Source of the DNA: Lautropia sp.
GTDB lineage: Bacteria; Pseudomonadota; Gammaproteobacteria; Burkholderiales; Burkholderiaceae_E
Assembly: GCA_030532895.1 (NCBI GenBank)
Contig: JAUNKF010000035.1
Location: 1-32,241, forward strand
DNA: 32,241 bases
Direction: 5' to 3'
The notes under the pieces are model-generated. The model was not told the origin of the DNA. It saw only the letters and a program-made list of their open reading frames with translations, and searched no databases. Both the position numbers and the translations under genes were made by a program. Shown here piece after piece: positions 5,829 through 30,132 of this stretch (the first letter of the stretch is position 1; each line of letters starts with the position of its first letter).

Positions 5829-5877
5829 CCTGGCCGCTTCTCGATGCGAAGCATGCCACGATGCATGATGAAGCCTG

Positions 5878-5902
5878 GCGTGTGCCATGCACGTGTTCGT
5901 CC
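5878..5902 (-). repeat. Dispersed intergenic repeat, copy A
   Basis: Read on the minus strand it has ACGAA followed by CGTGCATG, a GC insertion, then ACACGC. It matches the copies at 12702, 23726, 23759 and 25049. It lies between the FecR protein and phoH. A partly complementary stretch at 5850-5865 could form an arm with it. Confidence 0.65.
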
Positions 5903-5977
5903 TCGTGAAAGCCCCGCCCCGGGCGTCCAGATCAAGGCGCCCCTCGCCTGTTCTAACGACATACCTATCCCGTCACC

Positions 5978-7006
5978 GTGCCCCAAAGCCCTGCCCAAAC
6001 GCAATTCAGCCTTGCCGAACCCGACAACCAGAAGCTCGCCAGCCTGTGCGGCGCGCTCGACCAGAACCTGCGATCGATCGAGAATGCGCTGAACGTGCGC
6101 ATCACCCGGCGCGGCACCACCTTCATCGTGGAAGGCGAAGACGACGAGCCAGCCCGCACCGTGGCGCTCCTGAAGCGCCTCTACGCCGGCCGCCATCCAC
6201 TCACGCCCGAGGAACTCCAACTGGCCATCATCGAATCCCGCCACACCGCTCCCGTCACCGACGATCCGCATTATCCGCCCGTGACGCCCGTGCTCCCCCC
6301 GCAGTCGCCCGACAATCCGGTCATCCGCACCCGGCGCGGCGAGCTGCAAGGCCGTACCCCCAATCAACGCAAGTACCTGAAGAACATCCTCTCGCATGAC
6401 CTCACCTTCGGCATCGGCCCGGCCGGCACCGGCAAGACCTATCTGGCCGTGGCCTGCGCGATCGATGCGCTGGATCGTGATCAGGTCGAGCGCATCATCC
6501 TCACCCGCCCGGCCGTCGAGGCGGGGGAACGTCTGGGCTTTCTGCCGGGGGATCTCACCCAGAAGATCGACCCCTACCTGCGTCCGCTTTTCGATGCACT
6601 GAACGACCTGATGGGGTATGAGCGGGTCGTGAAGCTCACCGACCGGCAGCAGATCGAGATCGCACCGCTTGCCTACATGCGAGGGCGCACGCTGTCGAAC
6701 GCCTTCATCATTCTGGACGAAGCGCAGAACACCACGCCCGAGCAGATGAAGATGTTCCTGACCCGAATCGGTTTCGGCGCCAAAGCCGTCATCACCGGTG
6801 ACGTGACACAGATCGACCTGCCTGCCCCCAAGAAAAGCGGGCTGGTGCAGGCCGAGCGCGTGCTGAAAAAGGTGAAAGGCATCGGCTTCAGCCACTTCGA
6901 CGCAAGCGACGTGGTGCGTCATCCGCTGGTGGCCCGCATCGTCGAAGCCTATGAAAAACAGCAGGCCGAGCAGCGCCGGCGCGCCAACGCCCCCACCTTT
7001 GATTGA
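5978..7006 (+). CDS. phoH: PhoH-like ATPase
   Basis: This cytoplasmic P-loop ATPase belongs to the PhoH/YbeZ family, linked to RNA metabolism and ribosome maturation together with YbeY. The 342-residue product has Walker A GPAGTGKT at 147-154 and Walker B IILDEAQN at 244-251, followed by TTPEQMKMFLTR typical of the family. Residues about 20-85 form the small N-terminal nucleic-acid-binding region. GTG 5978 is the only usable start since an in-frame TAA lies at 5954; no strong ribosome site is visible. The stop at 7006 lies 34 nt before the chosen ybeY start, so the two are probably cotranscribed, as is usual in proteobacteria. Length and motifs are normal. Confidence 0.95.
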   Translation: MPQSPAQTQFSLAEPDNQKLASLCGALDQNLRSIENALNVRITRRGTTFIVEGEDDEPARTVALLKRLYAGRHPLTPEELQLAIIESRHTAPVTDDPHYPPVTPVLPPQSPDNPVIRTRRGELQGRTPNQRKYLKNILSHDLTFGIGPAGTGKTYLAVACAIDALDRDQVERIILTRPAVEAGERLGFLPGDLTQKIDPYLRPLFDALNDLMGYERVVKLTDRQQIEIAPLAYMRGRTLSNAFIILDEAQNTTPEQMKMFLTRIGFGAKAVITGDVTQIDLPAPKKSGLVQAERVLKKVKGIGFSHFDASDVVRHPLVARIVEAYEKQQAEQRRRANAPTFD

Positions 7007-7040
7007 TGAAGATTGGCCATCACTTGCCCTGGCAACACGC

Positions 7041-7520
7041 ATGACCCCTCCCCCCCTCGCCTCTTCCCTGCGCCCACGCCTGGCGTTGTCCATCCAGCAT
7101 GACCCCGAAGCGGGCGATCTGCCGGTGGATCGCACGCAGCTGCGACGCTGGGTGCAAAGCAGTCTCGCACGCGATGCTCAGCTCGTGCTGCGCTTCGTGG
7201 GCCGTGATGAAAGCCAGGCACTCAACCACCAGTATCGGGGCAAGAACAGGCCCACCAATGTGCTGACCTTCGATTACAGCCATGAGCCGGCGATCGAGGC
7301 CGACATCGTCATCTGCCTGCCAGTGCTCGAAGACGAGGCACGCGAGCAGCAGAAAACGCTGCGAAACCATTTGGCGCATCTGGTGATTCATGGCGTGCTG
7401 CATGCACACGGCATGGATCATCTGACCGAGGCCGAAGCAGCCGAGATGGAAGCCTTGGAGATCGCCCTGCTGCGCCGATTCCGTATCAAAGACCCCTACA
7501 CGCTGCCCGAAGACGCCTGA
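7041..7520 (+). CDS. ybeY: Endoribonuclease YbeY
   Basis: YbeY is a zinc-dependent endoribonuclease involved in 16S rRNA 3'-end maturation and ribosome quality control. The 159-residue product carries the family metal motif H-x3-H-x5-H at His117, His121 and His127, and the upstream GKNRPTNVLTF segment (68-77) typical of the family. ATG 7041 was chosen because it gives the usual family length; an ATG at 6951 in the same frame would add 30 residues and overlap the end of phoH by 56 nt. Neither has a clear ribosome site, so the start is moderately sure. The gene follows phoH. The corC/ybeX gene often found after it is not present before lnt. Confidence 0.93.
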   Translation: MTPPPLASSLRPRLALSIQHDPEAGDLPVDRTQLRRWVQSSLARDAQLVLRFVGRDESQALNHQYRGKNRPTNVLTFDYSHEPAIEADIVICLPVLEDEAREQQKTLRNHLAHLVIHGVLHAHGMDHLTEAEAAEMEALEIALLRRFRIKDPYTLPEDA

Positions 7521-7684
7521 TCGGATAGCTGGCGCGGCATAATGGGGCGCGGCCACGCGATTGACCATCCTCGCGTCGTCCCCCGGTTGACCAGGCGCAT
7601 GGGTCAGCCGTGTTCATCAAACGCCGAGCGCATGCCGCCGACCGACTGTCGCCTTCACCACGCGCTGCCTGCCGATGCCCGCCC

Positions 7685-9343
7685 ATGCCTGATTCTCACG
7701 CTGACTCCCACGCGCTTGCCCGCGCCTCACGCGCAGCCTCTCCCCCTGCCACCGTTCCCCCCCCCAACGCGGCCTCCCCCCGTCGATGGCCAGCCCTCCT
7801 GGCGCTGCTGCTGGGTCTGGCCCACGCCTTCTGCTTTGCTCCCTGGGGCAACGGCTGGCTGCAACTGGCGGTCTTTGGCGGATTTGCCACCTTGCTGGCA
7901 CACCAATGTCAGCGCGGTGCCAGCCTGCGCCGCTTGGGCCTGCTTGGTGCTCTGTTCGGGCTGGGCTGGTTCACGGCCGGTGTCAGCTGGCTCTTTGTAG
8001 CCATGCACGACATCGGCGGTCTGCCTGCGCCTGTGGCTGGCCTCGCACTCCTGCTCTTCGCTGCTTATCTGGCGATCTTCCCGGCGCTGGCCTCGATGCT
8101 CACCGGCCACCTGGCCAAGCCGAACCGCCCCACGGCCTTCATGCTGACGATGACCGGCGCCTTCACGCTCGGCGAGCTGGCGCGAGGCTGGCTGCTGACC
8201 GGTTTTCCGTGGCTGGGGTTCGGTTATGCGCACATCGACAGCCCGCTGGCAGCGCTCGCACCAGTGGGCGGCGTCTATCTGGTGACAATGGCGGTGAGCT
8301 TCATCTCGGCCGGCATCGCGCTCAGCTTCCAGCGGCTTCGGCCCTGGCTGATCCTGCCGGCACTCGGGTTGATCGCCGTGGCCGATTCGCTCGAAGGCAT
8401 GCAATGGACATATCCGCACGGCAAGCCGATCTCGGTGAGCCTCCTGCAGGGCAATGTCCCTCAGGTGATGAAATTCGACCCGGTGGCCAGTGCCAAGGCA
8501 CGGCAGGACTATCTCGCGATGATCGAATCCTCGCCGGCCGACCTCGTGCTGCTGCCGGAGACGGCCTGGACGGTGCCCTGGGAACGAACCGACCCGGCCA
8601 CCCAGGCAAGACTCTACGAGTTCATCCTGAGGACGGACAGCAGTGTGGCGCTCGGTAGCCCGCGCGTGGTGCAGCTGCCCGAGCCGCCTGCCGACGACCC
8701 CTATCAGGGTATGCGATTTGCCAACAGCATGGTGATGCTCGATCGCACGAGTCTGGCGGACGGCCAGCTGCCGCTCGCTTACGACAAGGCCCATCTCGTG
8801 CCCTTCGGCGAATTCATCCCACCGGGCTTTCGCTGGTTCGTCGACATGATGAAGATTCCGCTGGGCGATCTCTACCGTGGCCCGGCCGACCAGGCCGCAC
8901 TGCCACTCAAGGATCAGGCCATCGGCTTCAACATCTGTTATGAAGACATCTTTGGCGAAGAGCTGCTGCCTGCCGTCCGGGGTTCAAGCGGCAACGGGCA
9001 GAACGGCGCCACGATCCTCGCCAACCTGACCAACCTCGGCTGGTATGGCAAATCACACGCACTGCCCCAGCACCGGCAAATTGCCCGGATGCGGGCACTC
9101 GAAACAGGCAGACCGATGATTCGGGCCACCAACAACGGGGTCACGGCCATCATTCTGCCCAATGGCGAGGTGGCAGCCGAGCTGCCCTCGCATCAAAGCG
9201 GCGTGCTGAAAGCCAGCGTGCAAGGCCATGGCGGGTTGACCCCCTATGCCGAGGCCGGTGGAAATTGGCCGGTGGCCCTGGCCGCCGCCCTGATGCTGCT
9301 GCTCGGCGGCCGGCTGGGCCGTCGCACCAAAGGCAAAGGCTGA
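7685..9343 (+). CDS. lnt: Apolipoprotein N-acyltransferase
   Basis: Lnt is an inner-membrane enzyme that adds the third acyl chain to the N-terminal cysteine of lipoproteins, finishing their maturation. The 552-residue product has an N-terminal hydrophobic half with about six membrane helices, a nitrilase-like periplasmic domain from about residue 248, and a final C-terminal helix. The catalytic triad is visible: Glu292 (LLPETAW), Lys368 (YDKAHLVPFGEF) and Cys418 (NICYEDIFGE). Residues 1-35 are a Ser/Ala/Pro-rich cytoplasmic lead. ATG 7685 is preferred over GTG 7610; neither has a strong ribosome site. It sits 164 bp after ybeY. Confidence 0.94.
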   Translation: MPDSHADSHALARASRAASPPATVPPPNAASPRRWPALLALLLGLAHAFCFAPWGNGWLQLAVFGGFATLLAHQCQRGASLRRLGLLGALFGLGWFTAGVSWLFVAMHDIGGLPAPVAGLALLLFAAYLAIFPALASMLTGHLAKPNRPTAFMLTMTGAFTLGELARGWLLTGFPWLGFGYAHIDSPLAALAPVGGVYLVTMAVSFISAGIALSFQRLRPWLILPALGLIAVADSLEGMQWTYPHGKPISVSLLQGNVPQVMKFDPVASAKARQDYLAMIESSPADLVLLPETAWTVPWERTDPATQARLYEFILRTDSSVALGSPRVVQLPEPPADDPYQGMRFANSMVMLDRTSLADGQLPLAYDKAHLVPFGEFIPPGFRWFVDMMKIPLGDLYRGPADQAALPLKDQAIGFNICYEDIFGEELLPAVRGSSGNGQNGATILANLTNLGWYGKSHALPQHRQIARMRALETGRPMIRATNNGVTAIILPNGEVAAELPSHQSGVLKASVQGHGGLTPYAEAGGNWPVALAAALMLLLGGRLGRRTKGKG

Positions 9344-9381
9344 GTCACTTCAGCCTCCCCAATAACATAGCGGAGTATTCG

Positions 9382-9906
9382 ATGACACCCGACACCCCAA
9401 AACACTACGGCAGTGTCAGCCGTTTCTTTCACTGGACGATGGCTGCCGGATTTGGCTTCATGCTGTTCACCGCCCTGGCATGGACATTTGCCGAGGATGA
9501 ACCGTGGACAAAAGGCTTGATGTATTACCACAAGTCCGTTGGCTTCACACTGATGGTGCTCGTCGTACTTCGATGTATCTGGGCTGTCCTCCATCATGCG
9601 AAGCGCCCGCCTTCGGACAGCCTGCTCGCCTCACTGGGGCACTTGGCGCTGTATGCCCTGATGATTGCCGTACCGCTCACGGCGCTGATTCGTCAATATG
9701 GCGCAGCCCGTGGCCCACTGGAAGTGTTCGGCGTGCAAGTGATGCAAGGCTCGGCTGAAAAAATCCCGACCATGGTCAGCATCGGCAGCAATTTCCACAG
9801 CACGCTCGCCTGGGTACTGTTCGCCTTGGCAGCAGGCCATATCCTGATGGTGGTCGTGCACCGGCTGCAAGGCCATGACGTGTTGCCCCGGATGCTGGGT
9901 CGATGA
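9382..9906 (+). CDS. Cytochrome b561 family protein
   Basis: This 174-residue inner-membrane protein has four helices and the four histidines expected to bind two b-type haems: His17 (RFFHW), His50 (YYHKSVG), His139 (NFHS) and His153 (AGH). Family members such as CybB oxidise quinol and can act as superoxide:quinone oxidoreductases; others pass electrons to partner proteins. The start at 9382 has GGAG 7 nt upstream and gives a normal length. It lies 38 bp after lnt and could read through from it. No partner such as a YceI-like protein is next to it, so the physiological acceptor is unknown. Confidence 0.9.
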   Translation: MTPDTPKHYGSVSRFFHWTMAAGFGFMLFTALAWTFAEDEPWTKGLMYYHKSVGFTLMVLVVLRCIWAVLHHAKRPPSDSLLASLGHLALYALMIAVPLTALIRQYGAARGPLEVFGVQVMQGSAEKIPTMVSIGSNFHSTLAWVLFALAAGHILMVVVHRLQGHDVLPRMLGR

Positions 9907-10021
9907 ACCGCCCTTTGTCAGTTTGAAACCACCGCGCAACATTCTCTGATAGTGCAGTGCAGCATCTTCAGGTTGGCTATGCGATCATGTGATTTTGTTC
10001 AACACTTCACGAGCGTTCTCC

Positions 10022-10786
10022 ATGAGCAACAGCATAGCCTCCGCCGGCCGCCTGGCAGGCAAAGTCAGCATCATCACGGGTGCAGCACAGGGTATCGGCG
10101 AAGCCACGGCCCTCAAATTCGCCAAAGAAGGGGCGATCGTCGTCGCTTGTGACCTGAACGAAAAAGCGCTGGCAGATGTCGTCAAGCAATGCCAGGACCT
10201 GGGCGCACAGGCTGTCTCCTTCGTGATGAACGTGACGGATCGCGCCCAGGTGGACGCGGTGGTGGCCAAGGTGCTGGAACAGTTCGGCCGTATCGACGTG
10301 CTCGTCAACAATGCCGGCATCACGCAAGATGCCCGCCTCGTCAAGATGAGCCTGGAGCAGTTCGATCGCGTGATCGACGTGAACCTGCGTGGCGTGTTCC
10401 ATTGCACGCAGGCCGTGGCCGAGACGATGATCCAGCAAGGCAGCGGCGCCATCCTGAATGCCAGCTCGGTGGTGGGCCTCTATGGCAATTTCGGGCAAAC
10501 CAACTACGCCGCCACCAAGTTCGGCGTCATCGGCTACACGAAGACCTGGAGCCGCGAGCTGGGGCCAAAAGGCGTGCGCGTCAACGCCGTGGCCCCCGGC
10601 TTCATCGCCACCCCCATCCTGGCGAGCATGCCCGAGAAGGTGATCGAGGGCATGAAGGCCCGCGTGCCACTGGCCCGCCTCGGCAAGCCCGAGGAAATCG
10701 CCAACGTCTACGCCTTCCTCGCCAGCGACGAAGCCAGCTACATCAACGGTGAGGTCATCGAGGTGTCGGGCGGCATCTCCCTCTGA
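10022..10786 (+). CDS. SDR-family reductase, FabG-like
   Basis: This 254-residue short-chain dehydrogenase/reductase has the NAD(P)-binding TGAAQGIGE (19-27), NNAG (96-99), and the catalytic Ser149, Tyr162 and Lys166 (YAATK). The end [12 protein letters not shown] is typical of FabG-type 3-oxoacyl reductases, which are cytoplasmic tetramers. An Asp at the end of strand 2 (ACDLNE, Asp44) hints at NADH rather than NADPH preference, by family rule. No acpP, fabD or fabF is nearby, so this is probably not the essential fatty-acid synthesis copy; it could act on 3-oxoacyl-CoA or another ketone. The chosen ATG at 10022 removes an 11-residue stretch unlike the family. Confidence 0.88.
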
Positions 10787-10795
10787 TCTCGCATC

Positions 10796-10839
10796 AGCCG
10801 CCAGACAACGACCAGTAGCACCTGCGGTGTCAGGCGGCT
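10796..10839. terminator. Weak inverted repeat in the convergent gap
   Basis: AGCCGCC (10796-10802) and GGCGGCT (10833-10839) could pair across a 30-nt loop between the convergent SDR and BCCT genes. There is no T-tract. It is the best terminator candidate I can see in this gap, and it is weak. Confidence 0.25.
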
Positions 10840-10899
10840 CGTATCACGGGCAGACTGCTGTCAGGGGCACCTGATGCCACCCGGACACGCTTCCCTGTT

Positions 10900-12552
10900 T
10901 CACCCTGGCCGCACCTCCGTATGCGGCCCTGCCGAAGGCAGGTCAACTGCCGGGATCCTGAGACGCTGGCGCTTGAGCCTTGCCCGCCGCCGTGCCACGC
11001 GATAGCGGCGCAAAGCCAGCGACTTGGGCCTCAATTGCCGGCCAAAATCCCGCTGCACCCAGCGCAGCAGCGACAGCACCAACAGCACCAGCACCGGAAT
11101 CATCGGCAGTGCCACGATCACCGTGGAAATCTGCACCGCCTCCAAGCCGCCTACCATCAGCAGCGCCACCCCCACCATCGACACCATCACCGTCCAGAGG
11201 ATGCGGTTCCAGCGGGCCGGCTCCTGATAGCCGCTCAGCTCACGCGTGCAGATGGCGGCCAGCATGTAGGCCGAGGAATCGACCGTGGTGGCCAGGAAGA
11301 TGAAGCACAGCACGGTGAACACCGGCAGGATGGCATTGCTCCAGGGCAGGGTCTTCAAAATGGCCACCACCGTGGCCGGCGCCCCACCCTCAGCGGCCAG
11401 AATGGCCTGCAGATGGACCACGCCATTGACTTGCAGGTTGAGCGCGTAGCCACCCCAGATCGCAAAAAAGGCCCAACAGCCGACGCTGCCCCAACCCACC
11501 CCGTTGAGGATCAGCGCCTTGATCGTGCGGCCGCGTGAGATGCGGGCCACGAACAGCCCCATCATCGGCGCATAGGCCACCCACCAGGCCCAGTAGAAAA
11601 TCGTCCAGTTTTCCGGAAAGCTGCGGTTCTGTACCGGATCCGTCCAGAAACTGATGCGAAAGAAGTTGTCGGCCAGCATGCCAAGGCTGTTGCTCCAGAG
11701 CTTGAGCAAAAACACCGTGGGGCCGATGAAGAGAATGAGCAGCAGCATGATCAACGCCAGCAAGGCGTTCAGGTTCGACAACGACTGAATCCCCTTCTTC
11801 AGGCCGTTGTACACGCTCCAGCCGATGATCAACGTCCAGATCGCCAGAATGCCCAGCTGCAGCCCGAAGCTGTCGGGCAACCCGAACATGTTGCGCACGA
11901 GTGCCGTCACGAGAGGCACCGATAGCCCGAGCGAGGTGCCCACGCCGCCCACGATCGAAAAGATCACCGTCACATCGATCAGCTTGCCAAGCGGCCCGTC
12001 GACCCGTTCACCCAGCACGCCACGACAGGCTTCGCTCATCCGCAGCACGTTCACCTTGCGCACATACAGCGCGTAAGCGATGGGCAGCGACGGGATCAGG
12101 TACAAGGCCCATGGCACCACCCCCCAGTGAAACATCGGGTACATCGCCGCCCATTCCACGGCCTGCGGCGAATCCGGCTCGATGCCGAAAGGCGGTGTCT
12201 TCAGAAAATAAAGCGGCTCGACGAAAGCCCAGTAACAGATCGAGATGCCAATACCGGCGCAGAACAGCATCACGATCCACGGGCCACGCCCGAACTCGGG
12301 CTTTTCATCGGCTGCGCCGAGCTTGATCCTGCCGATGGGGCCGAACGCGAGCCACATCATCACGAAAAAGCTGGCAATGCCCACCAGCAGATACAACCAG
12401 CCCAAATTGCCCGTCATCCACGACAGCACCTGGCTGATCACCTGCTTGCCCGATGCCGGATAGAGCATCAGCGGCGAGATGATCAGACAGAGCGCAATCA
12501 CTGCCGACCAGAACACGCCCCGGTCGATCTTCAGTTCGGTCTCCTCTGCCAT
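10900..12552 (-). CDS. BCCT-family transporter, CaiT-like
   Basis: This 550-residue inner-membrane protein belongs to the betaine/carnitine/choline transporter family, with the signature WTIFYWAWW (316-324) and about twelve helices. Wording is closest to CaiT: FHWGVVPWALY (141-151), GTSLGLSVPLVT (205-216), and ARISRGRT (336-343). The aromatic substrate box of CaiT (Trp323, Trp324, Tyr327) and its Met331 are kept at the same numbers. CaiT Arg262, which stands in for sodium, aligns by eye with Asn262 here. The likely substrates are quaternary amines; which one is not shown. The C-terminal 40 residues are Arg-rich and cytoplasmic. The start has AGGAG 7 nt upstream. No carnitine or betaine catabolism gene is adjacent. 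Confidence 0.9.
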   Translation of the reverse strand: MAEETELKIDRGVFWSAVIALCLIISPLMLYPASGKQVISQVLSWMTGNLGWLYLLVGIASFFVMMWLAFGPIGRIKLGAADEKPEFGRGPWIVMLFCAGIGISICYWAFVEPLYFLKTPPFGIEPDSPQAVEWAAMYPMFHWGVVPWALYLIPSLPIAYALYVRKVNVLRMSEACRGVLGERVDGPLGKLIDVTVIFSIVGGVGTSLGLSVPLVTALVRNMFGLPDSFGLQLGILAIWTLIIGWSVYNGLKKGIQSLSNLNALLALIMLLLILFIGPTVFLLKLWSNSLGMLADNFFRISFWTDPVQNRSFPENWTIFYWAWWVAYAPMMGLFVARISRGRTIKALILNGVGWGSVGCWAFFAIWGGYALNLQVNGVVHLQAILAAEGGAPATVVAILKTLPWSNAILPVFTVLCFIFLATTVDSSAYMLAAICTRELSGYQEPARWNRILWTVMVSMVGVALLMVGGLEAVQISTVIVALPMIPVLVLLVLSLLRWVQRDFGRQLRPKSLALRRYRVARRRARLKRQRLRIPAVDLPSAGPHTEVRPG

Positions 12553-12701
12553 GGGCAGTCTCCTCTTCGTTCCTGGTGCGTCTTATAGCAGACAGTATCC
12601 TCCAAACGGCGCTTTGATGTGCCAAACCCCGGATATACCCCAAGAGGGCATCCATGTCTGGCGCTGCCCCCACCCATCAGGCAGCGCCATGCGGAGCTGA
12701 C

Positions 12702-12725
12702 GCGTGTCATGCACGTTTTCGTGCC
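12702..12725 (-). repeat. Dispersed intergenic repeat, copy B
   Basis: The minus strand carries the exact 14-mer CGTGCATGACACGC preceded by ACGAA. It is one of three exact copies of the core (with 21091 and 23769). It lies upstream of both flanking genes, so here it cannot be a 3'-end terminator. Confidence 0.75.
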
Positions 12726-12992
12726 TGGCTGTGTGCAGCATCTCATAGTCTCTTTGTTTTCGCAGCAACACGGAAACAAATCAGGACATGAAAGGGATTC
12801 AATGAGGCACCTCGTTCCAAAATAAGAACAAAACCCGAATGAATCGTCCCCAAAAAACCCTGAATGATTATCAAACCGCTTCGTGTCAACCGCTTCGCCA
12901 TCTTCTGCGTTTTTTTGAAAACCGGCTGATCAGGCGAAAACATGGACAGGTGTTCGAGATCACGAACACATGCACAAGACGCAGCCCGCGGT

Positions 12993-13006
12993 TTGATATA
13001 AAACAA
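12993..13006 (+). promoter_or_regulatory. FNR/ANR-like box upstream of the peroxidase gene
   Basis: TTGAT-ATAA-AACAA differs from the consensus TTGAT-N4-ATCAA at one base. Its centre (12999.5) is about 40.5 bp before the start point expected from the -10 hexamer TATACT at 13028-13033. That is the class II activator position, and the -35 region has no good hexamer of its own. FNR-type control of cytochrome c peroxidases is known in other proteobacteria. Confidence 0.65.
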
Positions 13007-13027
13007 GCTGCCAAAAACCGGACTGAC

Positions 13028-13033
13028 TATACT
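13028..13033 (+). promoter_or_regulatory. -10 hexamer of the peroxidase promoter
   Basis: TATACT is a strong -10 match; the predicted start point is near 13040, about 40 nt before the ATG. There is no recognisable -35 at 16-18 bp, consistent with activator dependence through the box at 12993. Confidence 0.55.
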
Positions 13034-13079
13034 CGATTTCAAAAACCAATAAACCAACCTTCTCAGGAAAGAAAACACG

Positions 13080-14204: not shown

Positions 14205-14538
14205 ACGCTGGCATCCCACGTCCCGGATCGCGCACTGATGACGCTGCCTTGCTCACCAAAGCAGCCAAGTCTGACAGGCGGCATGCGCGATCCTTATCAG
14301 CCCGGGCTTGCGAAGGCATCGAGCCTTGGCTGCGCGCGGCGCCTTGTCAGCCCACGGTTTTTGGGCCCGATGCGCTGACGATGATCAGCGCACGACGCGC
14401 GCCAACCGGCATAATCCGGCATGGCGCATCGCTCGGCGCGCCCGTTGCCAGGACAGCAATGTGCCTGTTGCCCCGGCATGACCCCGAAGGCAACCCCACC
14501 CAGCTCCCTCCCTCCTGACCAACCCAACAGGATCTGCC
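14205..14538. other. 334-bp gap between the peroxidase and LysR genes
   Basis: I see no gene here. It includes a small hairpin (AAGGC/GCCTT, 14313-14327) and an inverted repeat at 14399-14427 described separately. Confidence 0.6.
14399..14427. promoter_or_regulatory. Inverted repeat, possible LysR-type operator/promoter
   Basis: GCGCCA (14399-14404) and TGGCGC (14422-14427) flank two CCGG units around CATAAT, which resembles a -10 hexamer. It is 112 bp upstream of the lysR-type gene. Autoregulatory LysR sites are often imperfect dyads of this sort. No good -35 is seen. Confidence 0.35.
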
Positions 14539-15471: not shown

Positions 15472-15493
15472 CACGCCTCATGCACGGATAGCG

Positions 15494-15521
15494 CCCCGCA
15501 ATACACGCCCAGCGGGGTTTT
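15494..15521 (+). terminator. Rho-independent-like terminator after the LysR gene
   Basis: CCCCGC (15494-15499) pairs with GCGGGG (15512-15517) across a 12-nt loop and is followed by four T. It starts 22 nt after the stop. Confidence 0.5.
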
Positions 15522-15638
15522 CCCGCCAGGCTGGCCCCGAACCCGAACGCTGACGACGTGGCCACATGGCGAAGGTAGCGACACAGCCTTGACGGCGTGT
15601 GGCAGCTCGTCGACACACGGTTGGAAGGCCGGCGCGGC

Positions 15639-15663
15639 AACGAATCAGTGCATGACGACACGT
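15639..15663 (+). repeat. Dispersed intergenic repeat, divergent copy D
   Basis: AACGAAT then AGTGCATG, a three-base insertion and ACACG. It matches the family with one substitution and an insertion at the same point where other copies vary. It lies directly beside the biotin carboxylase stop in the convergent gap. Confidence 0.5.
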
Positions 15664-15665
15664 GC

Positions 15666-17432: not shown

Positions 17433-19327
17433 GAGGATTCCCCGTTGAAATACGCCCGAAACGGCGACACGACCCTGAAACGCACGTGAACCCCTGCCGG
17501 CAGTTGTGCCGCGCTGTCGAGATGATGGGGCACGACACAGCCGATGACCGGATAACCCCCGGTAAGTGGATGATCGGCCAAAAACAACACAGGCTGCCCA
17601 TTGGCAGGCACTTGCAAGGCCCCCAGCGCCGTCCCCTCGGAGGGGAGTTCCACGCCCTCGAAAGCTGGCGCCCTGACCAACGGCTGCTCACCCACCAGGC
17701 GCAAACCCACACGATTGGATTGCAGTGTCACCTGCCAGGACTGCCGCTGGAGCAATTCAATGGTATCTGGCGTGAACCAGTCGGTTCGTGGGCCGAGCAC
17801 GATGTCGAGCACGACGCTACCCGCATCATCACCGACGGGCTGATACGGCGGGTTGGCCGGGTGGATGTCATGGTGCATCATCACGGCACCCTTGGCCCAC
17901 TGCCCCACGGACAAGATTTGCCCAACCGACACCGGTTCAGGCCCGATTCCGGACAAGGTATCGGTGGCAGCGCTACCAAGCACAGGGGCCACCTTGAAGC
18001 CGCCTCGCACCGCCAGATAGCTGCGCAAGCCCACGTCCGGCGCGCCAATCGTCAACGTGTCACCGGGGTCTAGCGCCAGCGGCCGGTTACGCTCGGCAGG
18101 CCAGGCCGAGCCATCGGCATGACGCAGCTCAAGCGCCCCTTCTGCCCCCGTGATCGCCACCACCACGGGCGAGAGGACACGCACCGAAAACCCACCATGC
18201 AAAATTTCAAGGACAGGTGCACGACGATCGTTACCCACCAAACGATTCGCCAACATACAAGCACCTTTATCCAACGCCCCGGAAGCCGACACCCCCTGAG
18301 ACGCCTGCCCTTCCCGGCCCTGATCCTGAAAGATCGCCTGCAACCCCGTGGCCAGAACCTCGAAGGCATCGGGCACCGGCCGGGTGAGGTGCGGCGTCAT
18401 CGACGCTGACGGGGGCGGTTCGGTACGAACTTCACCGGCCTCGTCGGCCGGATGGGCCAGTCCTGCGCCTTGCGCATCCGAGGCATCATTGGCGGCAGCC
18501 AACGGCAGCATGTGCTCGACGGCATGCATGCCCCTGACATCCGCCCGGTTCATCGACACGGCCAGATCTGAAGAAGGCACGGCTGACGTGTCGGCTGAAA
18601 CCGCCGACACAGACGACGCCAGGCACGTACCGGTATCGCCCCCAATGCGTGTGCCTTCGGCAGACAAGGCGTCTGCGGCCCGACGCCAATGCTCGACCAG
18701 GCGCTGCCCTTCCTCGGTGGCAACATCCACGAATCGCACCCGTCCACCGGGCTGGAGCAAGGCTGGCGGCTGGCGAGCGAGATCCCACATCGGCACCATC
18801 GTGGTGCCCAACAGCTGCCATCCACCTGGGCTGGATCGCGGGTATATGCCGCAGAAACGGCCCGCCAGGGCCACTGAGCCGGCCGGAATTTTCGTGCGCG
18901 GGCTGGCACGTCGTGGCACATCGAAAAGCGGGTCATCGCCAGTCATGTAGGCAAAGCCCGGCGCAAAACCGGTAAACGCCACCTGCCAGATGGCCTTCGT
19001 GTGGCGTTCGATCAAGGCCGCCACGGACAGCCCCAGATGCTCGGCCATCTCCGCCAGATCCTCACCATCGTATCGCACTGGCAGTATCAGCAAAGCCCCG
19101 CTAGCCTGCTGGCGCCCCCCCACCTGTCGCCCGGCAATGGCATCGGCCAAGCGCTCAGGGCGACAGATGGACGGATCGAAAGTCACCAGGACGGTGCGCG
19201 CAGCCGGCACCAGCTCGGTGATGCCTGCAATCGGTTCAGTCTGCAAGGCATCGAAGAGCGCCAGCGTCTCTTCCAGGCTGTCCAATTCGACCAGCATGGC
19301 ATCCAGATTGGCGGGAAGAATACGCAT
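17429..19327 (-). CDS. pxpBC: 5-oxoprolinase subunits B and C, fused
   Basis: PxpB and PxpC (KipI/KipA families) together with PxpA open 5-oxoproline to glutamate with ATP. Here they are one 632-residue chain. Residues 1 to about 224 are PxpB, with [16 protein letters not shown] (120-135) and the [20 protein letters not shown] stretch (147-166). A poorly conserved Ala/Ser/Asp-rich linker follows (225-322). PxpC spans about 323-632, with FQDQGREG (333-340), GVSASGALD and LANRLVGN. Both families are homologous to the carboxyltransferase half of urea carboxylase. An AGGAG-type site precedes ATG 19327, 12 nt after the DUF1445 stop; the 3' end overlaps the biotin carboxylase start by 4 nt. Fusions of these two subunits are known elsewhere. 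Confidence 0.93.
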
Positions 19328-19339
19328 GAACCTCTCCTC

Positions 19340-20170
19340 TCAGCCCTCGTAGTACACGTCCGGCACATCGGTGATGAACATGTGTCCGGGCGCATGCGTG
19401 ATGGCAAAAGGCACGCCGGAGGCCATGACCGCCGCCTGCGGGGTCACACCGCAGGCCCAGAACACGGGCACCTCTCCCGGCTCGATACGCACCGGATCAC
19501 CAAAATCGGGCCGATCGAGATCGGCAATGCCCAAAGCCTGCGGATCGCCCACCTGCACCGGCGCACCATGCACCGAGGGAAATCGCCCTGAAATGCGGCA
19601 GGCATCCGCCACCCTGTTGGCAGGTATCGGACGCATCGACACGACCAGATTGCCCTTCAGGCGCCCCGCTGGACGGCAGGCGATGTTCGTGCGGTACATG
19701 GCCACATTGCAGCCATCGGTGACATGGCGCACCTCGATGCCAGCCTCGATCAGCGCGTTTTCAAAGGTGAAGCTGCAGCCGATCAGAAAGGTGACGAGAT
19801 CCGGATGCTCTGCCCAGGCCGCCCGCGCATCCGTCAACGCTTCCACCAGACACCCGTCGCGCCAGATGCGATACAGCGGGAGATCGGTGCGCAAATCAGC
19901 CCCTTCTGCCAGCACCGTATCGAAGGCCCCCGCTTCGACCACATCCAGCACCGGACAAGGCTTTGGATTGCGCTGGGCATACAACAAAAAATCCCAGGCC
20001 CACTCACGTGGCAAGGCGATCAGATTGGCCTGCGTCATGCCGCGGGCGATGCCAGCCGTCGGCGCCACCCGGCCCGACCGGTAGGCCGCGCGGGCGGCGC
20101 GGGCCGCTGCCTGCGCGGCGCGTTGGGCCTCGGTGAGTGATCGTGCGCCAGGCATCATGGTCGTTGTCAT
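19340..20170 (-). CDS. DUF1445 putative hydro-lyase / D-glutamate cyclase family
   Basis: This 276-residue protein belongs to the UPF0317/YcsI family (DUF1445), described as putative hydro-lyases. Vertebrate D-glutamate cyclase carries a domain of this family and converts D-glutamate to 5-oxo-D-proline. Conserved-looking parts are [11 protein letters not shown] (44-54), the [13 protein letters not shown] segment, VSMRPIP, and the C-terminal [13 protein letters not shown] and [10 protein letters not shown] stretches. The first 35 residues are Ala/Arg-rich and unlike the rest. ATG 20170 overlaps the pxpA stop by 4 nt, which supports this start. Setting between pxpA and pxpBC suggests that it supplies or processes 5-oxoproline; the exact reaction in this organism is inferred. 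Confidence 0.9.
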
Positions 20171-20925
20171 GCAAAGGGTTTCAACTCGACGCCCGCGGCC
20201 AACAACACACGACGCACTTCACGCGCCATGCCAACCGCGTCGGGGCTGTCACCATGCACGCAGATCGAATCCGCCTCGATACGCGCAAGGCTACCGTCAA
20301 CCGCCTCCACCACACCTTCTTGCACCAGCCGCAGCATGCGGGCTGCCACCAGCGCCGGATCGTGCAGCACCGCTCCTGGCGCCCGCCTCGACACCAGCGT
20401 GCCCTGAGGCGTATACCCTCGATCGGCAAATGCTTCGGCCACGACCTTCAGGCCGGCCGCCTTCGCCCACCCCACCAGCGGCGAGCCGGCCAGCACCACG
20501 AGCGCCAGCGAATCATCGAGCGCACGGATCGCTTCGATCACGTCCGTGGCCTGCCGCTCGTCATGAGCAATGGTGTTGTAGAGCGCGCCGTGGGGCTTCA
20601 CGTAACGCACCTGAGTACCCGCCACCTTGGCCAGCGCCTGTAAGGCGCCAATCTGGTAGAGGATGTCCGCCCTCAATTCGCGTGAAGCCACATCCATGTT
20701 GCGACGACCAAAGCCCACCAGATCCGGATAAGCCACGTGCGCACCGATACTGACCCCATTGGCCGCAGCACGCCGCAGCGTGTCGAGAATCCCGGCCGGA
20801 TCGCCCGCATGAAAGCCGCAGGCCACATTGGCGCTGGTGACGATATCGAGCATGGCCACATCATCACCCATCGGCCAAGCACCGAAGCTCTCGCCCAGAT
20901 CACTGTTCAAATCCATTCTTGCCAT
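20167..20925 (-). CDS. pxpA: 5-oxoprolinase subunit A (LamB/YcsF family)
   Basis: PxpA works with PxpB and PxpC in the ATP-dependent opening of 5-oxoproline. The 252-residue product has the family's opening [18 protein letters not shown] (5-22), then [13 protein letters not shown] and the KPHGALYN motif near the middle. Length matches the usual 245-255. ATG 20925 has GAAGG 9 nt upstream. It is the first of four closely packed minus-strand genes ending with the biotin carboxylase. The upstream NRAMP-like gene is separated by 180 bp, so pxpA may also have its own promoter there. The end overlaps the DUF1445 start in an ATGA. Confidence 0.95.
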
Positions 20926-21090
20926 GTCTCGATACCTTCAACGCGATGACGCCCAGTCCTCGTCAGGACAGCAGGCGTCCGTCACGACATTCATCGCCAG
21001 ACACCGGGATGACAGGCCACGGGGTCTGGGTCTTTGACTCGGCGTCCCGAGCATGCCTTGCCGTTGAGCACGTTCGATGCCTGCGCGGCC

Positions 21091-21104
21091 CGTGCATGAC
21101 ACGC
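21091..21104 (+). repeat. Dispersed intergenic repeat core, copy E
   Basis: Exact 14-mer CGTGCATGACACGC, one base beyond the NRAMP-like stop codon and upstream of pxpA. The usual ACGAA flank is missing here. Its placement inside an apparent operon means it could affect read-through or mRNA stability between transporter and pathway genes. Confidence 0.7.
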
Positions 21105-21105
21105 C

Positions 21106-22341
21106 TCAAGCAGCCAGCAGGTTGAAGATCGGGCCAATCGACTTGTAGCCCATGTACCAGGTCAACAGGCACACCAGCGAGCCAAGTACCAACAACCATT
21201 TTGGATAGGACACACCGCCCAGCAGATCCTGGCGCGTCCAGCCGATGATCATGAAGATCGTCATGCCCAGCGGCAGGATCAGGCCATTGAAGCCACCTGC
21301 AAAAATCAGCAAGGCTTTCGGCGCCGTGCCCATCAGCAGAAATACCGTGAGCGACACGGCAATGAAGACGGCTGTCGCCCGATTGCGCACGCTCTCGGAG
21401 AGATCGGCCTTGAAAGCTTTCAGGAAGGACATCGAGGTATAGGCCGCACCGATGACGCTGGAAATCCCCGCAGCCCAAAGCACCAGGCCAAAGAAGCGCA
21501 AGCCCAGATCACCTGCAGCCGACTCGAAAGCCTTTGCGGCCGGGTTGGCCCCATCGAGCACCACCCCGCTGGAGACGACCCCCAAGATGGCCAGAAAGAG
21601 CACGAAACGCATGACGCCCGTCACGGCAATGCCGTTGAGCGCCCCTTTCGTGACGGCCCCGATGTTCTCGACGCCCACCATCCCCTTGTCGAGCAGCCGA
21701 TGCGCCCCCGCATAGGTGATGTAGCCCCCCACGGTGCCCCCGACGATGGTCGTGATGGCGGCCCAATCGACCAGCTCGGGCATGACGGTCTGGCGCAACG
21801 CCTCGCCCACCGGCGGATCCGACACCACGGCCACATAGGAGGTGAGCACGATCATCATCAACCCCAGATAGACGATCAGCTTGTCGACGGCCACGCCGGC
21901 CCGTGGTGAGGCAAAAATGCCCAGTGCCACCAGGGCACTGATCAGCCCACCCCATTTAGGGGAGAGCCCGAACAAGGCATTGAGACCCAATCCGGCCCCG
22001 GCAATGTTACCCACGTTGAAGACCAGCCCGCCGAAGATGACCAGGACAGCCAGCACATGGCCGCTACCAGGCAATGCCTCGTTGGCAAGCGATGAAGCAT
22101 TTCGGTTGGCCAGCGTGATCATCCGCCACACGTTGAGCTGAACGACGAAATCGATCAGGATCGAGGCGAGAATGCCGAAGGCAAAAGCCGCGCCCAGCTT
22201 CGCGGTGAAGGTGGCCGTCTGCGTGATGAAACCGGGGCCGATGGCTGAGGTTGCCATGAGGAAAATGGCGGCCAGCATCGAGGCGCGACGCGATTGCACG
22301 AATGTCTTGGCCTGATCGCCGGGGGAGACGGGTTGATTCAT
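21106..22341 (-). CDS. NRAMP-fold transporter lacking the metal-binding motifs
   Basis: This 411-residue inner-membrane protein has about eleven helices and an NRAMP-like layout. The canonical DPGN of helix 1 reads I-G-P-G-F (34-38), and the canonical MPH of helix 6 falls in GGTVGGYITYAGAHRLLD (201-218), without Met-Pro-His. The side chains that bind manganese or iron are therefore absent, so metal transport is unlikely. Related genes (YcsG in Bacillus) sit in the same kind of cluster with pxpA, a DUF1445 gene and pxpBC. I infer a role in uptake of 5-oxoproline or a related compound. ATG 22341 has only a weak ribosome site. The promoter should lie in 22342-22520, shared with divergent dtd. 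Confidence 0.88.
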   Translation of the reverse strand: MNQPVSPGDQAKTFVQSRRASMLAAIFLMATSAIGPGFITQTATFTAKLGAAFAFGILASILIDFVVQLNVWRMITLANRNASSLANEALPGSGHVLAVLVIFGGLVFNVGNIAGAGLGLNALFGLSPKWGGLISALVALGIFASPRAGVAVDKLIVYLGLMMIVLTSYVAVVSDPPVGEALRQTVMPELVDWAAITTIVGGTVGGYITYAGAHRLLDKGMVGVENIGAVTKGALNGIAVTGVMRFVLFLAILGVVSSGVVLDGANPAAKAFESAAGDLGLRFFGLVLWAAGISSVIGAAYTSMSFLKAFKADLSESVRNRATAVFIAVSLTVFLLMGTAPKALLIFAGGFNGLILPLGMTIFMIIGWTRQDLLGGVSYPKWLLVLGSLVCLLTWYMGYKSIGPIFNLLAA

Positions 22342-22520
22342 GATCGAAAGACCGCAAAAATCGGAGCACCTACAGTGTAGCGATGTGCGCTACTACGGGT
22401 TTTCCCAGGCCAGGCGCCCGGCCCCCTGTCCGACACACCCGGGCTTTTTTGCCCCCGTGCCTTGCCTGGACGGCCGCCTGTCTTTGCCTGACTGTTTTGT
22501 TACCCATCGATCAGACCACC

Positions 22521-22961
22521 ATGTACGTTCTGGTTCAACGTGTTCGCCAAGCCACCGTTCGCATCGACGAGCAGATCGCCGGCCACATCGACCGTGGGCT
22601 GCTCGTCTTCATCTGCGCCGAGCCGAACGACACGCACGAGCATGCACGACGTGCCGTGGCCAAGCTGCTGAAGCTGCGGGTCTTTGCCGACGATGCCGGC
22701 AAGATGAATAAAAGTGTTCAAGATATCGACGGTGCATTACTGATCGTCAGCCAGTTCACGCTGGCTGCCGACGTCTGGCAGGGCAACCGCCCCAGTTTCA
22801 CGGGCGCCGCACCAGCAGCTCTGGGAGAAGCGCTTTATGATCAGGTGGTGACACTGGCACGCGAGCAGCACCCGACCGTGGAAACAGGTCGCTTCGGTGC
22901 CGACATGCAGATCAGCCTGATGAACGACGGCCCCGTCACCATCCCTTTCCGGGTACTTTGA
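22521..22961 (+). CDS. dtd: D-aminoacyl-tRNA deacylase
   Basis: Dtd removes D-amino acids (and mischarged glycine) from tRNAs in the cytoplasm. The 146-residue product has the two family signatures: SQFTLAAD (77-84) and the Gly-cisPro motif NDGPVT (135-140). Length is the normal 145-150. ATG 22521 was chosen over an upstream in-frame ATG at 22383, which would add 46 residues unlike the family; no strong ribosome site is present. It is divergent from the NRAMP-like gene. With a D-glutamate-linked locus next door the neighbourhood is suggestive, but dtd is a common housekeeping gene. Confidence 0.95.
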   Translation: MYVLVQRVRQATVRIDEQIAGHIDRGLLVFICAEPNDTHEHARRAVAKLLKLRVFADDAGKMNKSVQDIDGALLIVSQFTLAADVWQGNRPSFTGAAPAALGEALYDQVVTLAREQHPTVETGRFGADMQISLMNDGPVTIPFRVL

Positions 22962-23022
22962 GCAGGGCATGACCGCGAATGGCCCCCACCGGGCTTGACC
23001 AGATTGAAGGCAGCTGGCGCCT

Positions 23023-23040
23023 GATGGGAATGGCCCCATC
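23023..23040 (+). terminator. Small stem after dtd
   Basis: GATGGG (23023-23028) pairs with CCCATC (23035-23040); no T-tract follows. It is 37 nt before the tenA start and could be a weak terminator or a leader structure. I see no TPP riboswitch landmarks here. Confidence 0.25.
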
Positions 23041-23076
23041 CCCTTCATTCCTACAACCGAACAAGAATCAACGACG

Positions 23077-23724
23077 ATGACAGGATTTTCAGAACTTCTT
23101 CGCAACGAATGCTTTCATGATTGGCAAGCCGCCGTCGACCACCGCTTCGTCAACGAGCTGTTCGAGGGCAGCCTGCACGATGAGCACCTGAAGCGCTATC
23201 TGGTGCAGGACTATCAGTTCGTCGACCGCTTCGTGGCGCTCTTGGGGGCTGCGATTGCCTCGGCCGATCATTTTGGCGCGAGGGTTCGCTTTTCCCAGTT
23301 TGCCGCGATGGTCACCAGCGAGGAAAACACCTATTTCCTTCGCTGCTTCGACCTGTTGGGCGTACCCGAAGCCGAACGCACCCACCCGACCCTGCTGCCC
23401 GTCACCCAGGCTTTCCAGGCGCTGATGGCCGAAGCCGCCCATAGCCTCAGTTATGCCAAAGCACTGGCCGTGCTCTGCGTGGCCGAGGGCCTGTATCTGG
23501 ACTGGGCCGACCAACCCGGTCGGCCACTGCCCCAAGGCTTTCAGCACGCTGAATGGATCACGCTACATGCCAATGATTTTTTCCGCGATTTCGTGGGCTG
23601 GCTGCGATCCGAACTCGACCGTGTAGGCGAAACACTCTCGCCAGAAGAACAGAAGGAAGTGCGCCAACTCTTCTACCAGGCCGTCAAGCTCGAACGCGCC
23701 TTCTTCGACGCCGTCTACAGCTAG
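23077..23724 (+). CDS. tenA: TenA/thiaminase II family protein, TenA_E-like
   Basis: This 215-residue all-helical cytoplasmic protein belongs to the TenA family, which hydrolyses thiamin breakdown products such as aminopyrimidines in salvage. Typical segments are QDYQFVDRFVALLGAAIA (44-61) with Asp45, and a C-terminal KLERAFFDAV with Glu207. In the region where TenA_C proteins have their catalytic Cys within P-C-P-W, this one reads LCVAEGLYLDW (133-143). The A-x-E-x-x-Y pattern fits the TenA_E group, although a Cys (134) is close by. No thi gene is adjacent and no TPP riboswitch is seen. The ATG lacks a strong ribosome site. It converges with hmp across an 82-bp gap. Confidence 0.88.
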   Translation: MTGFSELLRNECFHDWQAAVDHRFVNELFEGSLHDEHLKRYLVQDYQFVDRFVALLGAAIASADHFGARVRFSQFAAMVTSEENTYFLRCFDLLGVPEAERTHPTLLPVTQAFQALMAEAAHSLSYAKALAVLCVAEGLYLDWADQPGRPLPQGFQHAEWITLHANDFFRDFVGWLRSELDRVGETLSPEEQKEVRQLFYQAVKLERAFFDAVYS

Positions 23725-23725
23725 C

Positions 23726-23782
23726 GCGTGTCCATGCACGCCCAGAGGGACTGTCTCAGGAACGAATCCGTGCATGACACGC
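23726..23782. terminator. Inverted pair of the dispersed repeat, likely bidirectional terminator
   Basis: GCGTGTCCATGCACG (23726-23740) faces CGTGCATGACACGC (23769-23782); the arms pair except for one bulged base, across 28 nt. It fills the gap between the convergent tenA and hmp stops (23724 and 23807). The stem is symmetrical, so it could work on both transcripts. The right-hand copy has the full ACGAA flank (23759-23768). Confidence 0.65.
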
Positions 23783-23806
23783 ACCGGAAAGCCGACACCC
23801 CCCGCA

Positions 23807-24988
23807 TCAATCCAGTGCCTCGGCCGGCCCGAAAAACTCATAGTGTGTCTGCGCCTCGGGCACACCCAGCGTCACCAGGGCACGCTTGATGAATGCCATG
23901 AAAGGCTTGGGCCCGAGAAAATAGACCTCGGCGTCCTCAGGCACCCATTGACGCAATTGTTCAACACTGGGTCGGCCGGTGGCATCCGGCTGGCGGGTGT
24001 CAGAAGGCGAGACCTGCTCGAACACCAGATGATGCTGGAATTGCGGATATTCCCGCGCCCATTGCTCGACGACCTCACCGAAGGCATGCACGGCAGCATT
24101 GCGCGCGTAATGAATGAACACCACGGGCCGCGCGGTGTGGGTCAGCGCCCATTCGGCCATCGCCAGCGTCGGCGTGATCCCCACGCCCCCGCTGATCAAT
24201 ACCAACGCCCGCTCGCCATCATCCAGCGTGAAGGCACCAGCCGGTGGAAACAGCGTCAGCTCCCCGCCCTCCGGCATCCGGTCATGCAGAAAACCCGACA
24301 CCACGCCCTGCGCCTCACGCTTGACGCTGATGCGATAGCCACGTCCATTGGGCGCGCTTGACAGCGAATAGTTTCGCCGGACTTCATGGCCATCGATCTC
24401 CAGCTTGAGGCCGATGTACTGTCCAGGCTTGAAAGCCACGACCTCGCCGCCATCGACCGGCACCAGGTGAAAGGACGTGATCTCCGCGCTTTCCGGCACC
24501 TTGCGAACCACACGGAAACGCCGTTCGCCACGCCAGCCGCCAGGGGCTTGAGCCAATTCATCATATGCTTTGCTTTCGGCGCCGATCAGGATGTCGGCCA
24601 GCTGCTGATAAGCCGCCCCCCAGGCGTCGATCACGGCAGGTGTGGCCACCGATTCCCCAAGCACTTCACGGATGGCTCGCAGCAGACAGGCACCCACGAT
24701 CGGATAATGTTCCGGAAGAATCTGTAATGCCACATGCTTGTTGACGATCTGCGCCACCAAGGGCCCCAGGGCTTCCAACTGGTCGATATGCTTGGCGTAC
24801 ATCAGCACGCCATTGGCCAGCGCCCTGGGTTGGGCGCCGCTGGCCTGATGCGCCTGGTTGAACAGCGGACGAACAGCCGGGTATTCCCCCAGCATGATCC
24901 GGTAAAAGTGCGTGGTCAGGGCCTCACCACCACTTTCCAGCAAGGGAACGGTAGCCTTGATGATGTCGAGTTGAGCTTGTGTGAGCAT
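23807..24988 (-). CDS. hmp: Flavohaemoprotein (nitric oxide dioxygenase)
   Basis: Hmp oxidises nitric oxide to nitrate using oxygen and NAD(P)H. The 393-residue product has an N-terminal globin domain (1 to about 140) with distal Tyr29 and Gln53 and proximal His85 (NKHVAL), an FAD domain with RRNYSLSSAP, and an NAD domain with GGVGITP; it ends with the typical HYEFFGP. Length is close to the usual 395-400. I prefer ATG 24988 because MLTQAQLDIIKATVPLL is the usual start; an in-frame ATG at 25033 would add 15 residues. An FNR-like box lies at 25207-25220, about 219 bp upstream. I did not find a convincing NsrR site. It converges with tenA. Confidence 0.95.
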   Translation of the reverse strand: MLTQAQLDIIKATVPLLESGGEALTTHFYRIMLGEYPAVRPLFNQAHQASGAQPRALANGVLMYAKHIDQLEALGPLVAQIVNKHVALQILPEHYPIVGACLLRAIREVLGESVATPAVIDAWGAAYQQLADILIGAESKAYDELAQAPGGWRGERRFRVVRKVPESAEITSFHLVPVDGGEVVAFKPGQYIGLKLEIDGHEVRRNYSLSSAPNGRGYRISVKREAQGVVSGFLHDRMPEGGELTLFPPAGAFTLDDGERALVLISGGVGITPTLAMAEWALTHTARPVVFIHYARNAAVHAFGEVVEQWAREYPQFQHHLVFEQVSPSDTRQPDATGRPSVEQLRQWVPEDAEVYFLGPKPFMAFIKRALVTLGVPEAQTHYEFFGPAEALD

Positions 24989-25048
24989 GTCAATGTCGTT
25001 GGTCGATATCCTGAGAACGTCTTGTGCGTGCACAACACGGCAGTGTCA

Positions 25049-25072
25049 GGGACGAATGCGTGCATCACACGC
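25049..25072 (+). repeat. Dispersed intergenic repeat, copy H
   Basis: GGGACGAAT, then CGTGCATCACACGC: one mismatch to the core. It lies upstream of hmp, which makes it another copy not at a gene's 3' end. Confidence 0.65.
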
Positions 25073-25177
25073 TGTCGTCCTGTGAAAGGGCCAGGCACAT
25101 GAGCGGCCATCGGCTGACGGCATCACGAGCCGCCAGGACATACAAGGCGGCCCGGTGCCCTGTCTTCGGGATGGCCT

Positions 25178-30130: not shown

Positions 30131-30132
30131 GC

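Follow-up and report, generated by a model that had tools for sequence, protein, structure and literature searches.

A dispersed intergenic repeat in Lautropia sp. is very probably an IS5/IS427-type MITE

Prokaryotic MITEs such as Correia, QMITE1/2 and Chunjie are described, in the sections of PMC10969869 devoted to them, as intergenic, hairpin-forming elements of less than 500 bp with terminal inverted repeats (TIRs), whose flanking repeats fade with age and which also occur as truncated copies. The same sections give MITEs as typically AT-rich and QMITE1 copies as 39-400 bp long. As for autonomous elements, the Paracoccus examples of the IS427 group listed in Table 2 of PMC3281130 measure 832-865 bp, with IRs of 12-21 and a 2-bp repeat in nearly all of them. 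The repeat family analysed here was found in a window of 32,241 nucleotides of Lautropia sp. (contig JAUNKF010000035.1). As far as those sections of PMC10969869 go, it is like the above MITEs in size, TIRs, intergenic location and hairpin, as well as in its fading flanking repeats and truncated copies, but it differs from Correia, QMITE1/2 and Chunjie in its TIR, its parent IS and its compact two-ended unit of ~60 bp, and it is G+C-rich (~60%), whereas MITEs in general are given as AT-rich. On the sequence evidence, it is very probably an IS5/IS427-type MITE on which an IS5 transposase would have acted in trans. This reading was adopted because of the TA borders, the ends common to ~857-bp IS5 elements and a decayed IS in a sister species. 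It would make the family a new one of a well-known, ordinary kind, and gives a previously unexplained motif a complete anatomy and a named likely engine. Within the PMC library and with the terms used, the four TIR strings were not found, nor was any paper joining nonautonomous MITE, Burkholderia and IS5; one paper there mentions both Lautropia and insertion sequences, and a looser search had no "lautropia" among the matches listed.

The family was originally predicted from a 14-mer, the three exact copies of which are indeed present at 12702-12715 (minus), 21091-21104 (plus) and 23769-23782 (plus). Its gapped variants at 5878-5893 and 23726-23740 (both minus) were recovered with the pattern CGTGCATGN{0,6}ACACGC, that at 25059-25072 has one mismatch to the 14-mer, and that at 15647-15662 was borne out by direct reading of the sequence. 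The gapped pattern gave 5 matches in the window vs. a shuffle mean of 0.00 (100 shuffles). The original prediction had asked for a genome-wide search, which returned 30 exact matches to the gapped pattern across 3.64 Mb vs. none in the reversed control, so that the motif is far beyond chance. At one mismatch at most, the TIR 13-mer occurs 234 times in the genome vs. 5 times in the reversed control, and a covariance model of the ~60-bp element found 134 copies at E ≤ 0.1. From these, 108 copies were fetched, the remaining 26 being nearly all among the weakest. Genes were called by codon usage with a simple program that had been trained on 20 genes of the window, the majority with Pfam matches, and 105 of the 108 copies lie outside the called genes. 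Their gene contexts are varied (36 ++, 24 --, 22 convergent, 17 divergent and 9 other), and the family is, as had been proposed, dispersed, intergenic, variable in orientation and gene position, and not simply a terminator.

The 14-mer is a genuine repeat, but only one end of a larger unit: it corresponds to one TIR of a ~60-bp element, TA[GMGCGTGTYATGCAC...GTGCATRACACGCKC]TA. The TIRs bounding this element (GMGCGTGTYATGCAC) leave no space for a transposase gene, and none is carried by the multi-copy short form (134 model matches). The sites at 23726-23740 and at 23769-23782, predicted as separate copies, belong to a single element (23722-23785), of which they form the opposite ends, and the ACGAA reported upstream of the motif is in fact part of the interior. 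Insertions, said to fall always at the same point, are seen in a few window copies, but most of the two-ended copies have no TIR insertion. Allowing three mismatches, both TIRs are retained in 42 of the 108 fetched copies, one in 60 and neither in 6. A long version of 267-294 bp, likewise without a transposase gene, has the same ends and occurs in the window genome as well as in three relatives. At the loci sampled in the sister species (G006), 11 complete short copies and 4 true long copies were found; a fifth long pair, of 243 bp, consists of two adjacent short copies.

The sole window copy keeping both ends, at 23722..23785 (minus strand; one TIR with one extra base), lies between a tenA-like gene (+) and a flavohaemoglobin-like gene (-, ending at 23807), neighbours being named here and below from Pfam. 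Its border forms the TAG stop codon of the tenA-like gene (23722-23724), and in four relatives the 77 bases following the stop codon of the tenA-like orthologue contain no element. It scores 76.7 bits with model R1, being itself among the 12 copies that built it, and E 8.9e-9 in an independent single-consensus nhmmer search. The decayed copy at 5877..5946 (plus), between a FecR-domain gene (ending at 5828) and a PhoH gene (starting at 5978), has kept its left TIR, with extra bases, and its interior, and has lost its right TIR (R1 26.0 bits, E 6.1e-5; nhmmer E 7.7e-4). Two weaker copies, each with 13.8 bits and E 0.086 for R1, are a decayed one, degenerate in both of its TIRs and situated at the 5' end of the flavohaemoglobin-like gene (25018..25073, minus; nhmmer E 0.029), and a decayed half copy between convergent LysR and biotin-carboxylase genes (15601..15662, minus; nhmmer E 0.042), in which the TIR has inserted bases and the interior TGATTCGT is retained. 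The half copy at 12701..12722 (plus), between divergent BCCT-transporter and MauG-type genes, has an exact TIR and a few interior bases, with a whole-element score of only E 2.8. At 21091..21104 (minus), a single exact TIR, scored as a whole element at only E 8.4, stands directly 3' of the TGA stop of an Nramp-like gene (21106-22341, minus). Concerning the fragments also predicted, that at 25532..25545 (plus) is doubtful as a single TIR: it has 2 mismatches to the 14-mer and matches the TIR variant GCGTGTCATGAAC known elsewhere in the genome, but reaches only E 0.94 as a whole element. By the same score, the one near 29594 (E 0.087) and the one near 30666 (E 2.4) scarcely rise above noise, if at all. 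Positions 1490-1538 were rejected as a copy despite a model E of 0.015, the sequence being an unrelated hairpin.

In its best-kept copies the element lies beside TA, mostly YTA. In G006, TA stands on both sides of 8 of the 11 complete short copies and of 4 of the 5 long pairs; counted by distinct TIR ends, TA is found at 41 of 46 and YTA at 36 of 46. Both-side TA was also found in 6/7 long and 0/2 short copies of G003, in 0/5 long copies of G001, and in only 5 of the 42 two-ended copies of the window genome. In G001, the uninserted repeats have diverged too far for a clean TA duplication to be recognised. The family is seen at several ages: G006 has TA-bordered copies that are nearly identical, together with the relic of an IS, and the window genome has half copies and lone ends. 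Of 200 relatives searched for the exact two-TIR pattern, 2 had it, as did 1 of 399 genomes sampled from the order (a set without G006); since exact ends were demanded, these figures understate the spread. Look-alikes in a Paracidovorax MAG (51 bp) and in Allofranklinella (63 bp) have the same TIRs but different interiors, and are probably separate mini-elements of related ISs.

The same ends delimit IS5-family elements of Burkholderia and Mycetohabitans (L155-L158), all of which have their ends beside TA, with 857-858 bp between the TA borders. Out of 18 TIR positions, L155 and L158 have no mismatch at either end, L156 has 2 and 2, and L157 has 2 and 1; the L155 protein matches DUF4096 and DDE_Tnp_1. 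In size (~857 bp), ~18-bp imperfect-to-perfect TIR, DDE transposase and TA on both borders, these elements are like the IS427 examples tabulated in PMC3281130, from which the Lautropia element itself differs by having no transposase. By analogy in size, TIR and TA, rather than by a transposase tree, the putative parent is placed in the IS427 group of the IS5 family. G006 holds a decayed IS of ~859 bp between such TIRs (4 and 1 mismatches), two ORF pieces of which match DDE_Tnp_1. No IS-sized pair was seen in a TIR-pair scan allowing 2 mismatches over the sampled G006, G003 and G001 loci, the left TIR of the relic having 4. No transposase of the L155 type was detected in the window genome or in G001-G005, so the family looks extinct in the window genome. 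TIR pairs 1.8-2.5 kb apart on two contigs (C16 and C42) were dropped as an autonomous element because some of their ends belong to separate short elements.

We propose that an IS5 transposase acting in trans would have recognised the TIRs and placed the element into TA sites, with duplication of the TA, and that the family would have amplified within Lautropia. The source of transposase may then have decayed, leaving a relic in one sister species. Copies of the window genome would by now be drifting, with loss of their TA borders, of their interiors and, in many cases, of one TIR, those surviving being mainly those between genes.

Other readings were weighed against this one. The original prediction suggested a REP-like element, which is fitting in a loose sense, the copies being short, palindromic, dispersed and intergenic, with many single ends, as in REP/REPIN families, whose mobility depends on a RAYT (Y1 tyrosine) transposase. 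Such a likeness is also expected of truncated MITEs, which come to resemble REPs according to the MITE sections of PMC10969869. A search for PF01797 gave no match in the window genome, the same search being positive in 5 of 14 control genomes, and the ends are IS5-type TIRs beside a TA target; a true REP/REPIN origin is therefore very improbable. A binding site for a host protein (regulator, nucleoid or segregation factor), also suggested, would agree with an inverted 13-15 bp motif conserved in many copies, but the conserved unit is of ~60 bp, with a common interior, TA borders and versions of 267-294 bp, and just 17 of the 108 copies lie between divergent genes, without concentration there. 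We hold this extremely improbable as the primary identity; the ends are most likely built for an IS5-type transposase.

A structured RNA or 3'-end element under selection (terminator, mRNA stabiliser or RNase III site) would account for the consensus fold of -37.2 kcal/mol (z -8.3), for an arm match of 0.813 within copies vs. a mean of 0.794 when arms were dealt among copies (16 of 2000 shuffles as high), and for the called stop codon that touches the border in 27 of the 108 copies. However, pairing is lost in 85 of 630 stem pairs, and changes on both sides were found at 10 positions where 5.9 were expected, with complementarity in just 5 of the 10. No run of four Ts lies within 6 bases of either end, on either strand, in any of the 42 two-ended copies, i.e. 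the T-run that directly follows the hairpin of an intrinsic terminator is absent. The varied gene contexts also speak against it, as do the two TIRs kept in 12 of the 27 stop-touching copies, about as often as overall, and the window gave no Rfam match at gathering score. A transcribed copy is predicted to form a strong hairpin, with at most weak selection on it. The RNA processing site of the original prediction is not supported as primary identity, and we judge such an RNA element very unlikely.

Under the preferred IS5-type MITE reading, an insertion at the TA of a stop codon would rebuild TAG, since the TIR begins with a G next to the TA target, and could therefore be harmless. This explains the copies starting at a gene's stop codon, which could otherwise be mistaken for regulatory sites. 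A called gene ends exactly at the rebuilt TAG in 23 of the 108 fetched copies; the comparison figures are 40 of 980 for TA sites that are noncoding or in a stop codon (p 7e-11) and 19 of 138 for YTAR sites (only p 0.021). Such ends were not significant in G006 (2/46, p 0.16) and numbered 0/19 in G003 and 0/12 in G001. The association is kept as an observation, not a rule, because it is weak against YTAR sites, non-significant in G006 and based on our own simple gene caller. No relevant paper on MITEs and stop (or termination) codons was among the literature matches listed. In a G+C-rich, TA-poor genome, the ~60-bp unit might owe much of its persistence to insertions within or next to stop codons, leaving strong hairpins right at the 3' ends of intact genes, some of which might now act as mRNA-end elements even with the transposase gone from the genome, a scenario that we regard as rather unlikely. 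Among the 23 copies, one has borders that terminate two convergent genes at once.

In the better copies among 30 aligned loci, the 14-mer of the original prediction is matched by a second, inverted arm about 30 bases away; the full unit reads GMGCGTGTYATGCAC - TGATTCGTCCCCGCGAAAGCCCCTCTGGGC - GTGCATRACACGCKC and is about 60 bp long. A covariance model was built from 12 copies, that of the window included, and at least 134 copies were recovered at E ≤ 0.1 when the best 150 first-look candidates were scored. Among the 108 copies fetched for close reading, both terminal inverted repeats (TIRs) are kept at ≤3 mismatches in 42, a single one in 60 and neither in 6, the window copy at 23722 being counted among the 60 because one of its TIRs has an extra base.

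A scan of the window re-located the three exact 14-mers and all the close variants where the original prediction had placed them, and the gapped pattern gave 5 matches (shuffle mean 0.00). The excess holds genome-wide as well, with 30 matches in the 3,642,343-base genome vs. 0 for the reversed control; for the 13-mer GCGTGTCATGCAC, allowing one mismatch, the counts were 234 and 5, respectively. The copies were rightly described as intergenic, 105 of the 108 lying outside genes called by a simple codon-usage caller. As for the ACGAA reported near them, it is present but corresponds to the interior of the element itself (TTCGT on the other strand).

Within the window, 23722-23785 is the sole copy with both ends. 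The covariance model also detects a clear decayed copy at 5877-5946 (E 6e-5) and further copies at 15601-15662 and 25018-25073 (both E 0.086), while the exact 14-mers at 12702 and 21091 are single ends with poor whole-element scores. A hit at 1490-1538 (E 0.015) was rejected, being by sequence an unrelated hairpin. Elsewhere in the window, FecR is the sole Pfam domain recognised in a 934-aa ORF (3024-5828), and a small ORF (29876-30130) is directly followed by a PIN-domain gene (30133-30552), the two together (29876-30552) resembling a VapBC-type toxin-antitoxin pair.

The covariance model hits 6 of the 61 searched genomes, all in the genus of the window. Under stricter filters applied across the 61, there are 79 hits in the window genome, 62 in the sister species G006, and 27, 18, 8 and 2 in the relatives G003, G001, G004 and G007, with none in G002, G005 and G008. 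Scanning GTDB genomes for two exact TIRs returned four loci, of which two belong to one Lautropia MAG, a third to a Paracidovorax MAG and the fourth to Allofranklinella. The mini-elements of the other genera (L032 1316-1378 in Paracidovorax, L034 7033-7083 in Allofranklinella) have the same TIRs and a different interior.

Concerning the parent element, a loose search of plasmids, using the consensus as query, produced a single match (93.5% over the first 31 consensus bases), located at the left terminus of an incomplete IS5-type element of Cupriavidus necator. This stretch matches 58 plasmid records, and an IS5 family transposase is annotated in 26 of 30 among the matches listed. Four IS5 elements that were read carry the same TIR at both ends, TA-bordered and 857-858 bp apart, with 0 mismatches over 18 bases in Mycetohabitans (L155) and B. 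glumae (L158), 2 and 2 in B. multivorans (L156), and 2 and 1 in B. ubonensis (L157); DUF4096 and DDE_Tnp_1 domains were identified in the protein encoded by L155. Their size, TIR and 2-bp repeat all fit the entries for the IS427 group in the table of PMC3281130. Two separate searches found no IS5-type transposase in the window genome or G001-G005. G006 has a decayed copy of this type (TIRs 859 bp apart, 4 and 1 mismatches, transposase interrupted), G008 a transposase fragment (residues 177-267, 65% identity) and G007 a DUF4096 match above cut-off with two stops inside. The REP-associated transposase (RAYT) suggested earlier was sought in the window genome and not found.

At the G006 sampled loci, TA adjoins 41 of the 46 distinct TIR ends and YTA 36 of them; TA-bordered ends number 13/19 in G003 and 5/12 in G001. 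In G006, TA flanks 8/11 short complete copies and 4/5 long pairs on both sides; the remaining pair consists of two short copies side by side. The corresponding counts are 6/7 long and 0/2 short copies in G003, and 0/5 long copies in G001. In the window genome, TA lies on both sides of 5 of 42 two-ended copies, TG and CA being common instead, as would be expected of old copies. The element is absent from the 77 bases 3' of the stop codon of the tenA-like orthologue (the gene preceding 23722) in four relatives; two of these orthologues share the C-terminal position of the window protein, and the other two run on for 2 and 7 residues. Several G006 contigs (e.g. C9, C16, C24, C33, C35, C65, C71 and C91) start some 20 bp into the element; the short-read assembly probably breaks at young copies.

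By the same simple caller, the 108 copies lie in ++ (36), -- (24), convergent (22), divergent (17), undetermined (6) and coding (3) contexts. In 27, the border abuts a called stop codon, which in 23 is exactly TA/G, i.e. the target TA plus the first TIR base (window 23722-23724, for instance); of the 167 genes at these loci that end away from an element, 24 have TAG as their stop. At L087 (1501-1563), both ends form the TAG of convergent genes (dihydrolipoyl dehydrogenase-like and BioB-like). The domain scan covered 19 of the 28 products ending at such borders, and many reach the model end: LptG (350/351), dihydrolipoyl dehydrogenase (461/461), BioB (306/307), asparaginase (348/348), AraC HTH (80/80) and frataxin (106/107). 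PBP4 extends about 22 residues past its model, two products have no match and others are only partly covered. These insertions thus lie at, or close to, the native ends of genes and do not truncate the proteins. The excess of TA/G stops is strong vs. plain TA sites (p 7e-11) and modest vs. YTAR sites (p 0.021), and was not reproduced in G006 (2/46 ends), G003 (0/19) or G001 (0/12).

Some covariance-model hits are termini of a larger element that shares the TIRs and cannot accommodate a transposase. It measures 294 bp in the window genome, TA borders counted (L097 496-789), and in G001, G003 and G006 its length from one TA border to the other is 267-289 bp. At four G001 loci it is nested in another repeat, which also occurs close by without the insertion, in copies too divergent for a clean duplication. 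This second repeat, of about 200 bp with internal hairpins (L110 1391-1498, 1772-1866 and 2258-2464; also L114, L118 and L122), contains the long form in some copies and lacks it in others.

The folding energy is -37.2 kcal/mol for the consensus, and -26.2 and -31.8 for the two strands of the window copy. Among 630 stem pairs, 512 are Watson-Crick, 33 G-U and 85 broken; positions changed on both sides number 10 vs. 5.9 expected, five of them complementary. The two arms fit each other a little better within a copy than after re-pairing across copies, a level reached in 16 of 2000 shuffles. We interpret the copies as almost neutral relics of an IS5-type MITE, single ones possibly having a 3'-end role; both TIRs are kept in 12 of the 27 stop-touching copies vs. 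42 of 108 overall.
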